From IMG/VR virus record IMGVR_UViG_3300010375_000034, positions 1 to 38,215 of that record: a stretch of DNA of 38,215 nt, one strand, 5' to 3'. Both the position numbers and the translations under genes were made by a program. Shown here piece after piece: positions 15,941 to 28,364 of the stretch. Within the stretch, counting starts at the first letter, position 1; every line of letters begins with the position of its first letter. The stretch is from a virus. A model generated the notes under the pieces. The model made no database searches, was not told the origin of the DNA, and saw only the letters and a program-made list of their open reading frames with translations.

Positions 15941-16600
15941 ATGAAAAAAGAAAATCGCCGCCGCCGCGTCGTGCTGTACGTCCGAGTCAGCACCAAGAAA
16001 CAAACAAATCTCAACCAGTTTCTCCAGCTTCGCAAAGCTGCTGAATACCACGACTGGGAAGTTGTCGCAGTTTTTCGAGATCACGGAAGAACTGGGGCCA
16101 ACCAGGATAGACCCGGTTTTCAAGCCTTATTGAAATTTATTCGGAATCGAAAAAACAAAGTCGATATGCTGGCCACGTACAACCTTTCGAGAATCGGTCG
16201 TAGCGTTCGAGACCTGGCCAACTTTCTGGAAGATGAAATCCGGGAACGAAACATCAACTATTTCAGCTACAGAGACAGCATTGATACTACCACTCCTCAC
16301 GGACGGATGCTTTTCGCAATTCTGGCAGCAGTCAGTGAGTTTGAAAGAGAATGCACTGTTGAGAAAGTTCTTGACGCACTTGAAAGAGCGAGAGCCCAAG
16401 GGAAAACCCTTGGCCGTCCAAAGCGCAATAATCCTAAAAATAAAAAATACGATCCGGAAATCATCAATAAAATTTTGACTGATTACAATAACGGCAAGGG
16501 CAAGAAGATTAAACAGATTGTCAAAGAGGTTCCATACGCTCGAAACACAGTGCGTTCAATCATCAGGGAGGCAGAAAATGCTGAAACCGAGGCATCCTAG
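15941..16600 (+). CDS. Serine recombinase (resolvase/invertase family)
   Basis: 219 aa. The catalytic domain has YVRVSTKKQ (Ser17 nucleophile), GRTGANQDRPGFQALLKFI, the arginine motif YNLSRIGRSVRDL, and the E-helix FAILAAVSEFERE; GRPK leads to a C-terminal helix-turn-helix (IKQIVKEVPYARNTVRSII). This is the resolvase/invertase branch, not the large integrase branch, so it most likely resolves multimers or inverts a segment rather than integrating the phage. Many plasmids carry one for dimer resolution. No partner site is obvious from inspection. ATG 15941; weak AGGATATTGCC upstream. Confidence 0.9.
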   Translation: MKKENRRRRVVLYVRVSTKKQTNLNQFLQLRKAAEYHDWEVVAVFRDHGRTGANQDRPGFQALLKFIRNRKNKVDMLATYNLSRIGRSVRDLANFLEDEIRERNINYFSYRDSIDTTTPHGRMLFAILAAVSEFERECTVEKVLDALERARAQGKTLGRPKRNNPKNKKYDPEIINKILTDYNNGKGKKIKQIVKEVPYARNTVRSIIREAENAETEAS

Positions 16601-20510: not shown

Positions 20511-20801
20511 ATGAAAGATTTAAAAATGAATTTTCATGAGCTTTTTCAAACAGAAGAACAAGATACCCGAACGGTTGAAAGGGTAAAAAATTTCATTCTT
20601 GGGGCGCTGGCTACAAGCGAGTTTGTTTCAGGCCCATGCAGGAGCGACTTAGATAAATCTACCCGTATATATTCTGTGCATCGAGTTGAGTTGAACAATC
20701 CCAAATTTGCAGAAGCTGCCCGTTACATGGCGGAAACATACTTGGAACTTTTTCCTGTGTGCTCGAAAGAGGAAGCGACACGAGAAACCGCCAACGTCTA
20801 A
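20511..20801 (+). CDS. Unknown 96-aa protein
   Basis: 96 aa (ATG 20511; ATG 20526 also possible). Acidic, helical, with RVKNFILGALATSEFVSGPCRSDLDKSTRIYSVHRVELNNPKFAEAARYMAETYLELF, which looks like a compact globular domain. No motif I know. It precedes the Acb2-like and Tad2 genes and follows a terminator, so it may be the first gene of a counter-defence transcript. Confidence 0.6.
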   Translation: MKDLKMNFHELFQTEEQDTRTVERVKNFILGALATSEFVSGPCRSDLDKSTRIYSVHRVELNNPKFAEAARYMAETYLELFPVCSKEEATRETANV

Positions 20802-20832: not shown

Positions 20833-20853
20833 TTAGAAAAGGTTTTTCAAATG
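20833..20853 (+). repeat. 21-bp repeat over a start site, copy 2
   Basis: Identical to 19755-19775; carries AAAAGG and the start codon of the Acb2-like gene. Confidence 0.7.
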
Positions 20854-21042
20854 GCTAAAAGCCCGCTATTAGCTCACTTTGAGTATGACAATGTTGTTGG
20901 CTCTGCAAAGGCTCACTGTCACGATATTGCAGCATTGGCCAAAAACTTTGAACGGAATATCCCGGACGGTGATGAAAAAGATATTGTCCTTCGACGGCTC
21001 TTGGACGTGAAAGATGCGGTTATAAGAGCTTGCAAACTGTAA
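20851..21042 (+). CDS. Probable Acb2/Tad1-like (Vs.4-type) cyclic-nucleotide sponge
   Basis: 63 aa from ATG 20851. The pattern HFEYDNVVGSAKAHCHDIAAL then AKNFERNIPDGDEKDIVLRRLLDVKDAVIRA fits the two-helix hairpin of T4 Vs.4/Acb2-type proteins (F.Y.........ir..Ak..a..i....P...EK..al..L.e...a...a). These proteins bind cyclic di- or trinucleotides or gcADPR and block CBASS or Thoeris signalling. The next gene is a Tad2 protein with an N-terminal module often linked to such genes. The match is by pattern; the family usually ends in AN..IA, here AVIRA. Moderately sure. Confidence 0.5.
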   Translation: MAKSPLLAHFEYDNVVGSAKAHCHDIAALAKNFERNIPDGDEKDIVLRRLLDVKDAVIRACKL

Positions 21043-21055
21043 TGGAGAACTGTCT

Positions 21056-21469
21056 ATGTCCCTGGTGTATTACGGAACTAAATGTATTGAAGCCTGGCCA
21101 GCTGAAAAAAATGGCGAGGCAGGCTATGGCGTCCGCTATGCCGACGGTTATGAGTCTTGGTCGCCTAAGCACGTTTTTGAAGAAGCCTATCAACCGACGA
21201 CCGCACTAAGCTTCGGTCATGCGGTGGTTGCTTCTGTATCTGGCCAAAAAGTTTGTCGGGCTGGCTGGAACGGCAAGGGAATGTTTTTGTATTACGTCCC
21301 TGCCAATGCTTATCCAGCTCAAACGGACGTGGCTAAAAAGCATTGGGGCGAGAATTCTCTCGTCCCATATGGGGCGTATCTCGCAATGAAGACCGCCGAT
21401 GATAACGTCGTTCCCTGGTTAGCTTCCCAAACGGACGTCTTGGCGAACGACTGGATGATCATTGATTAG
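21056..21469 (+). CDS. Tad2 (DUF2829) anti-Thoeris protein with N-terminal SWSPK domain
   Basis: 137 aa. Residues ~50-137 are a clear DUF2829/Tad2 domain: FGHAVVASVSGQKVCRAGWNGKGMFL, then VPYGAYLAMKTADDNVVPW, then LASQTDVLANDW. Tad2 proteins bind and sequester the Thoeris signal 1''-3' gcADPR. The first ~48 residues hold a separate module (GTKCIEAWPA...GYGVRYADGYESWSPKHVFEEAY) found beside Vs.4/Acb2-like genes in other phages. It follows the Acb2-like gene by 13 nt; GGAGA lies upstream of ATG 21056. Family call firm; ligand unproven. Confidence 0.85.
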   Translation: MSLVYYGTKCIEAWPAEKNGEAGYGVRYADGYESWSPKHVFEEAYQPTTALSFGHAVVASVSGQKVCRAGWNGKGMFLYYVPANAYPAQTDVAKKHWGENSLVPYGAYLAMKTADDNVVPWLASQTDVLANDWMIID

Positions 21470-21472
21470 CCG

Positions 21473-21715
21473 GTGAGCTATAAGTGTATCAAGGAGCGGA
21501 TGACAGAACGTGAGCCGCTTTATACGGTTAACGCTATTCTGGAATCGCTCCCTGATTACCCTTTCGAGTCAACCGACAGAATCACCTATGCCGAGATGTA
21601 CGGCTCCTCCCTGGTATTCATGGGAGAGGATGCTCAGTATTACTTTCTCCGGGGATACAAAGACCTCCGTCCAATGAGGAAGTTTTTCGACACAAACAAA
21701 CAATTGCTTTTTTAA
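21473..21715 (+). CDS. Unknown 80-aa protein after tad2
   Basis: 80 aa from GTG 21473, or 71 aa from ATG 21500, which has AAGGAG but at only 3-nt spacing. Tyr/Phe-rich: YTVNAILESLPDYPFESTDRITYAEMYGSSLVFMGEDAQYYFLRGYKDL. Beta-rich, cytosolic. Close to the nucleotide-sponge genes and co-directional, so perhaps another counter-defence factor; no motif supports it. Confidence 0.6.
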   Translation: MSYKCIKERMTEREPLYTVNAILESLPDYPFESTDRITYAEMYGSSLVFMGEDAQYYFLRGYKDLRPMRKFFDTNKQLLF

Positions 21716-27104: not shown

Positions 27105-28364
27105 TTACGCCAGTAAATAATTTTTTCGAATCAGAGAAACCAGTTCAGCAAACAAGGCCGCCGCCATTACGTCATAGCCGGTGTTGTTCGGGTGCAGGTT
27201 GTCAAAATTTAATCCGGTTTTATAGCGTCGCGGTGTTGCCGTATCTGCGGTAACAGTCGTTAAATCAATGACCGCATAATTCCCGGCCTTGATTCGGTTC
27301 ATGAAGGCTTTCAGGAGATTGTCCGTTGCGGCGTCATAGTTATTGTTCGGGGCCAGGAAAACCGCAACCGGCAGGATGCCCAGGCTATGGCAGAAGTTAG
27401 CGAAGTCTACCCATCGGCGATACATGATATCGAAGTCAGCTTGAACAGGCGTGCTTTTATCGTTGGGTGAATAGGGGGATGCTAGAGCAATAGCCGGTTT
27501 TACGGAAGTAAGACAGCTTTTACCATACCCATAATACTCATCCGTTTTCGCACCGGCAGACCCTAAGTTGATCATGTTAATCGGGTAGCCGGCCGCCAGC
27601 GCCAGCATTTCAACCCGGTTGATGTGGGAATTTCGATCGTTGGTCGCCCCCAACCCTTCCGTGATTGAGTTCCCCAAACCCGCTATTTTAATTACCTGCT
27701 TGGCACTCAGGAACTCGAAGGCAAAGAAGGGGCTGATGGTTGACGTACCGGCGCTCGTCAGCGTGGAGGGATTGGTTGTATAGTCACCGCTCTGGAAAAA
27801 CGCCTCCTGATAATAATTGGTTGCAGGGTCGCTAGAATTGGCGGAAATGGAATAATAGCCGACCGAGTTGCTATTTACAGACGTGTCAAAACGGGCTCTG
27901 GCCATGATAAACGGCATTTTGTTGCCGTCGGAACGCAGCACCGATTGAAGAGGAATCCAGTCGGATACAAGAATGCCACCGTCTCTCGCGGTAGCTCCCT
28001 TTGCCGGAACCGTTCCCGTGGCAGAGCCATTGTTAAAGGTTCCTGCCTGCCAGCCTGTTAAGCCGCCATCGTTGGTCAGGGTGTTTCCAACCGAGGGGAC
28101 AATTTTATTCGTGTTGGAATTGGTGGGCGCTACGATCAGTGACGCCACCCCAAATGAGGTGGTTTGAATATTTTTGAAATGAACCCGGACAAAATTAAAA
28201 TCTTCTACTGGCGCATTCGCAATGGTTGTAAAGGTTTGAGTGTTGCCGCCGCCCGTGTTTCCACCGCCGCCCCCGGCCAGGTAGCGGGTAGCGATATTGT
28301 TAATATTGTTTGTCGGTATCCGCTGACCAATCTTGGGCGGCTTGTAGCTAGGCTTTAATAACAT
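27105..28364 (-). CDS. SGNH/GDSL esterase-type receptor-binding protein
   Basis: 419 aa. An N-terminal Gly-rich stretch and beta region (1-220) precede an SGNH hydrolase domain: GLGNSITEG (Ser233), NLGSAGAKTDEY (Gly block II), FLAPNNNYD (Asn block III) and DNLHPNNTGY (Asp388, His391). It probably removes acetyl groups from host surface polysaccharide. Directly downstream of the tailspike cluster and with a fibre-like N-terminal part, so likely carried on the virion. AAGGA lies 8-9 nt before ATG 28364. Confidence 0.85.
   Translation of the reverse strand: MLLKPSYKPPKIGQRIPTNNINNIATRYLAGGGGGNTGGGNTQTFTTIANAPVEDFNFVRVHFKNIQTTSFGVASLIVAPTNSNTNKIVPSVGNTLTNDGGLTGWQAGTFNNGSATGTVPAKGATARDGGILVSDWIPLQSVLRSDGNKMPFIMARARFDTSVNSNSVGYYSISANSSDPATNYYQEAFFQSGDYTTNPSTLTSAGTSTISPFFAFEFLSAKQVIKIAGLGNSITEGLGATNDRNSHINRVEMLALAAGYPINMINLGSAGAKTDEYYGYGKSCLTSVKPAIALASPYSPNDKSTPVQADFDIMYRRWVDFANFCHSLGILPVAVFLAPNNNYDAATDNLLKAFMNRIKAGNYAVIDLTTVTADTATPRRYKTGLNFDNLHPNNTGYDVMAAALFAELVSLIRKNYLLA

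Follow-up and report, generated by a model that had tools for sequence, protein, structure and literature searches.

CBASS, Thoeris and type III CRISPR systems signal with small nucleotides, and sponges are a main answer of phages to them. Two short plus-strand genes in an IMG/VR virus record, analysed here in its entirety (38,215 bases, the window), raise the question of whether one phage places two different sponges side by side, and of what is contributed by the additional module that precedes the sponge domain in the second protein. The first open reading frame (ORF) runs from an ATG at 20851, preceded by AGAAAAGG, to a stop at 21042. The second follows after a gap of 13 nt, starting at the ATG at 21056 with GGAG upstream and ending at 21469. 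Each has a ribosome-binding-like site, and both give the appearance of genuine genes. The features of the pair are as follows.

20851..21042, plus strand: helical-hairpin protein of 63 aa, predicted cyclic-nucleotide sponge
21056..21469, plus strand: SWSPK-Tad2 fusion protein of 137 aa
21056..21199, plus strand: SWSPK module (residues 1-48), a small beta domain without a Pfam name
21203..21466, plus strand: Tad2 domain (residues 50-137)

The Tad2 domain of the 137-aa protein

An earlier note on this DNA had recognised a DUF2829/Tad2 domain in the 137-aa protein and this was confirmed. The Pfam search gave PF11195 with an E value of 1.3e-22 and 80.5 bits against a cut-off of 25, and the solved proteins matched included ModTad2 (E 5e-25), AcrIIA7/HgmTad2 (8e-17) and SPO1 Tad2 (E 2e-14). 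The domain is complete and its match far beyond chance. The motifs quoted in the note were all found, and the ligand-loop motif and C-terminal W and D residues of Tad2 are retained on alignment, GWNGKGM, W121, S124, D127 and D132 being invariant across 36 aligned Tad2 sequences including this one. The AlphaFold2 model (pLDDT 96.3) superimposes on ModTad2 in complex with His-ADPR (PDB 9eib) with a Z score of 12.9 and an rmsd of 2.5 over 87 aligned residues at 51% identity (Foldseek E 7e-10). The PHROGs profile phrog_872, listed there as ‘unknown function’, spans residues 14-136 with an E value of 6.5e-42, showing that SWSPK and Tad2 belong to one chain and one profile.

The closest solved relative is ModTad2, the Tad2 of a Myroides odoratus prophage (PDB 9eib, 8v3e). 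The two proteins have the same GWNGKGMF loop and near-equal loop lengths, but ModTad2 is a bare domain of 88-89 aa whereas the 137-aa protein has the SWSPK module in front. According to work cited in PMC13299392, type II Thoeris is inhibited by ModTad2 through binding of His-ADPR, and type I Thoeris by SPO1 Tad2 through binding of gcADPR. The long insertion of AcrIIA7/HgmTad2 is absent from the 137-aa protein, whose loop length is near that of ModTad2, so its ligand is most plausibly an ADPR-type signal.

The names of some relatives suggest a different function, that of an AcrIIA7-type anti-CRISPR rather than an anti-Thoeris sponge. Two of the PDB relatives (8kbi, 9kzr) are named AcrIIA7 or inhibitor of type II CRISPR-Cas and the homologue in phage Louie is annotated ‘anti-CRISPR’. 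However, the AcrIIA7/HgmTad2 protein has also been solved with 1',2'-cADPR and cGG (8kbj, 8kbk), so it is structurally a sponge, and by the E values given above the Tad2 domain here is nearer to ModTad2 than to AcrIIA7/HgmTad2. An anti-CRISPR function is considered highly improbable, and the Tad2 domain is in all likelihood a sponge.

The 63-aa hairpin protein and its relation to Acb2

The 63-aa protein had been described as Acb2/Tad1-like. Taken to mean that the protein is Acb2 itself, the description failed: the Pfam search found no match to PF24729 even at an E value of 1, and direct profile-profile comparison of the 63-aa family with 72 Acb2-type sequences gave an hhalign probability of 1% and an E value of 0.05. 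Even among its relatives, 2 of 12 reach PF24729 at only E 0.011. At the level of the superfamily, however, the description holds. A search of viral contigs with the single sequence gave no relative. The protein does match the PHROGs families phrog_1761 (E 9e-8) and phrog_5120 (E 2e-6), both listed as ‘unknown function’, and its relatives occur in 175 phage records. The connection to Acb2 is made by an intermediate family, consisting of a protein in locus L075 and proteins of Paenibacillus, Mycobacterium, Gordonia and Lactococcus phages, which passed PF24729 at 39-96 bits. This family matches the 63-aa clade with an E value of 6e-8 and the Acb2 clade with one of 9e-4, while the best values from 120 unrelated control families were 0.034 and 0.027 in the respective comparisons. 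Because the intermediate family bridges to PF24729 above the controls, the 63-aa protein is placed in the Acb2/Tad1-hairpin superfamily as a divergent member that is distinct from Acb2.

The structural model (pLDDT 92.5) has helices at residues 5-10, 18-36 and 41-62. This predicted fold, a short N-terminal helix and two long helices, has the layout described for the Acb2 protomer (T4 Vs.4, PaP2/PaMx33 p26), although the 63-aa protein lacks the mid-loop of Acb2. Foldseek and VIA returned only generic helical matches for the model and did not list Acb2, which is not evidence against homology. Residues F10, A30, E42, R48, L50, L51, K54, D55 and R59 are invariant in the family. In T4 Acb2, changing Y8 to alanine abolishes function and T68M lowers binding (PMC12657230). 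The transitive alignment places Y8 at Y12 of the 63-aa protein and T68 at a leucine, and therefore the ligand may differ.

It could be argued that the Tad2 fusion is the only anti-defence protein of the two, the 63-aa protein having a role in structure or assembly and a helical hairpin that binds no signal. Its relatives often adjoin major capsid, portal or lysis genes, no member of the family has a known function and the protein here, the most divergent of its clade, has lost H14, L15 and S23, which are kept by nearly all relatives. However, the Acb2 gene of phage JBD67 sits two genes after that for the major head protein, so a capsid-side location does not exclude a sponge role for the clade. 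Two further points argue against a structural role: the link to PF24729 by way of the intermediate family, which lies far above the controls, and the position of 63-aa-type hairpins directly beside Tad2 in another two independent phages (L357 and L020). A structural role is considered unlikely, and the 63-aa protein is probably, if not securely, a sponge. The families phrog_1761 and phrog_5120, from Vibrio, Acinetobacter, Brevibacterium, Erwinia and other phages, would then add a large unannotated clade to the sponge candidates. As a separate matter, PF24729 hairpins of Paenibacillus and Brevibacillus phages (L278 1495-1710; L280 1492-1698) carry the annotation ‘putative phosphomannomutase’, very likely in error.

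The SWSPK module and its partners

In the model of the 137-aa protein the SWSPK module forms a separate beta domain of ~48 aa. It weakly resembles Tudor, SH3 and CarD-like barrels (best Z 5.6, 48 residues, rmsd 2.2), a similarity within the range of common arrangements. No Pfam family matches the module. No description of it was found in the literature, the papers covered being those with an open licence so that absence proves little. The motif G-Y-x-V-x-Y-x-D-G-Y-x-S-W-S-P-K is nearly invariant. The fusion to Tad2 had been pointed out in the earlier note as one with no assigned role known to its reader, and is indeed present, but the reader could not see that the module is widespread and repeatedly joined to several sponge families. 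That the SWSPK-Tad2 fusion is unusual was rejected, given 106 unique ORFs of this kind in the fetched loci and gp49 of phage N4.

Apart from these 106 ORFs, the unique SWSPK ORFs in the fetched loci comprised 15 of SWSPK-PF13876, 3 of SWSPK-Tad2-crAss001_48, 2 each of SWSPK-crAss001_48 and SWSPK-PF13876-Tad2, and 1 each of SWSPK-Tad2-PF13876-crAss001_48 and SWSPK-crAss001_48-Tad2, though these counts are biased by the queries. A further 16 had no partner among the models used, 2 of them (L428, L434) having a Tad1-like C-terminus. With a query containing neither Tad2 nor PF13876, 27 unique SWSPK ORFs were obtained: 14 with Tad2, 2 with Tad1, 1 with crAss001_48 alone and 10 with none, some of these 10 being truncated at contig ends. 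The fusions to PF13876, Tad2 and crAss001_48 lie above the Pfam cut-offs, and the C-terminus of the L428 protein matches Tad1 (8kbb) with an E value of 5.7e-29. PF13876 is the Acb4 sponge family (PMC11722364). The SWSPK module is thus shared by no fewer than three kinds of phage signal sponge that are unrelated to one another, namely Tad2, Acb4 and Tad1, and that it ties these proteins together is a more interesting result than the sponge pair. Two sponges, an Acb4-type PF13876 domain and Tad2, are found in a single chain behind SWSPK in L374 (2992-3801), L378 (2992-3798) and L049 (3935-5218), the last with a crAss001_48 domain in addition. In the fetched loci no single ORF fuses SWSPK to an Acb2-type or 63-aa-type hairpin, the only hairpin-bearing fusions being those to Tad1.

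It is put at about even odds that SWSPK serves as an accessory rather than being a sponge itself. As an auxiliary domain common to several sponge families, it would most likely add assembly, avidity or targeting. Alternatively, SWSPK may be a sponge part of its own that binds another signal, with Tad2, Acb4, Tad1 and hairpin genes joined to it to deal with several signals. Its fusion to three unrelated sponge families, its occurrence without a recognised partner in 10 of 27 ORFs and its nearly invariant charged and aromatic motif are consistent with this. However, neither the sequence nor the structure of the module matched a nucleotide-binding domain, the barrels that its fold weakly resembles are protein- or peptide-binding ones and the partnerless ORFs are partly cut by contig ends, and a separate signal-binding role is regarded as rather improbable. 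It is suggested more tentatively than the accessory role that SWSPK is a hallmark domain of phage sponges, a signal-binding or sponge-assembling unit for interchangeable multi-signal sponges, and that new sponge families, the 63-aa hairpin clade among them, occur as its neighbours. Should sponges be assembled from exchangeable parts that share a module, then the module is a search handle for undiscovered sponges, and the interchange of parts explains how a single phage could blunt several immune systems at once.

The crAss001_48 domain (PF21825) is likewise found in varied company, being fused in turn to 63-aa-type hairpin, Tad2, Acb4-type and SWSPK domains, or lying beside Acb2 (L020 4448-4912; L019 4001-4606; L430 2992-3702; L051 3367-3903; L189 3280-3708). 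It is a second candidate for a sponge-associated domain.

Pairing of sponge genes and the genomic surroundings

The proposal of two different sponges in tandem gains from the recurrence of the arrangement elsewhere. Hairpin-type genes abut Tad2 in 12 loci (the present record, L357, L020, L204, L221, L253, L022, L023, L028, L075, L263 and L264), among which L204/L221, L022/L028 and L263/L264/L075 are interrelated. The order of the two genes in L357, a Yersinia similis prophage, is the same as here. Tad2 is present in 3 of 50 Acb2-bearing records and is adjacent to Acb2 in all three. It speaks against the two-sponge reading that most members of the 63-aa clade do not adjoin Tad2, which was a neighbour in 0/34 loci and present anywhere in 2/43 records. 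In 24 of 73 unique viral Tad2 loci the Tad2 gene has a PF13876 gene within 1 kb, compared with 2 of 80 RusA loci (Fisher p 4e-7), the RusA set being closely related E. coli prophages and so understating the background diversity; the further controls had PF13876 neighbours in 0/74 Acb2 loci and 0/34 loci of the 63-aa family. SWSPK was found near Acb2 in 6/74 loci against 1/80 controls (p 0.056), a proximity which is no more than suggestive. Records L401 and L442 have a PF24729 hairpin directly upstream of SWSPK, and Lactococcus phage CHPC971 has a relative of Tad1 after a PF24729 protein.

A similar pair exists in phage N4, where gp48 (PF13876, E 9e-35), named as the sponge Acb4 (PMC12657230), overlaps gp49, the SWSPK-Tad2 protein. 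There too a small sponge gene precedes SWSPK-Tad2, but the partner is Acb4 whereas here it is the hairpin protein. The gp48/gp49 pair makes the idea of a shared module testable in a laboratory phage. Pfam names PF13876 after ‘N4 Gp49’, although in the N4 record (L366) the match at 2103-2474 is gp48 and gp49 is SWSPK-Tad2.

The Tad2 domain and its fold, the homology and predicted fold of the hairpin, the recurring pairing of sponges and the sharing of SWSPK were all observed, and on this basis we lean towards interpreting the two genes as a modular two-signal sponge cassette built of known kinds of parts. The cassette would be a counter-defence unit in a tailed phage, located in its early region. 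Its Tad2 domain would bind and hold a TIR-made ADP-ribose-type signal (His-ADPR or gcADPR) and so keep the Thoeris effector off, while the 63-aa protein may oligomerise and trap the cyclic di- or trinucleotides of CBASS-like systems.

Other features in the window bear on the extent of the cassette and the nature of the phage.

21473-21715, plus strand: 80-aa ORF starting with a GTG without a ribosome-binding-like site; the likelier start is the ATG at 21500 after AAGGAG, giving 71 aa
14627-15559, plus strand: ArdC-type anti-restriction protein (PF08401 E 4e-33, with a PF18818 metallopeptidase; phrog_7245 E 6e-81)
15941-16600, plus strand: serine recombinase of the DNA invertase or integrase family (phrog_125 E 3e-45)
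27105-28364, minus strand: GDSL lipase-like domain protein (31.6 bits against a Pfam cut-off of 32.9)

The 80-aa ORF had been put forward as a possible third member and the 96-aa gene at 20511-20801 as part of the same island. Neither gave a significant match in Pfam, PHROGs, NCBIfam or 50,697 phage records; the third-member idea was dropped for want of any relative and the place of the 96-aa gene in an island was not upheld. The pair belongs to a run of short genes that ends at those for a DnaT-like protein and a primase-helicase, and is therefore probably expressed early. The ArdC-type gene, ~5 kb upstream of the pair, is a further counter-defence gene. The serine recombinase suggests that the phage is temperate, and the GDSL lipase-like protein, beside other minus-strand genes, is possibly a tail protein.
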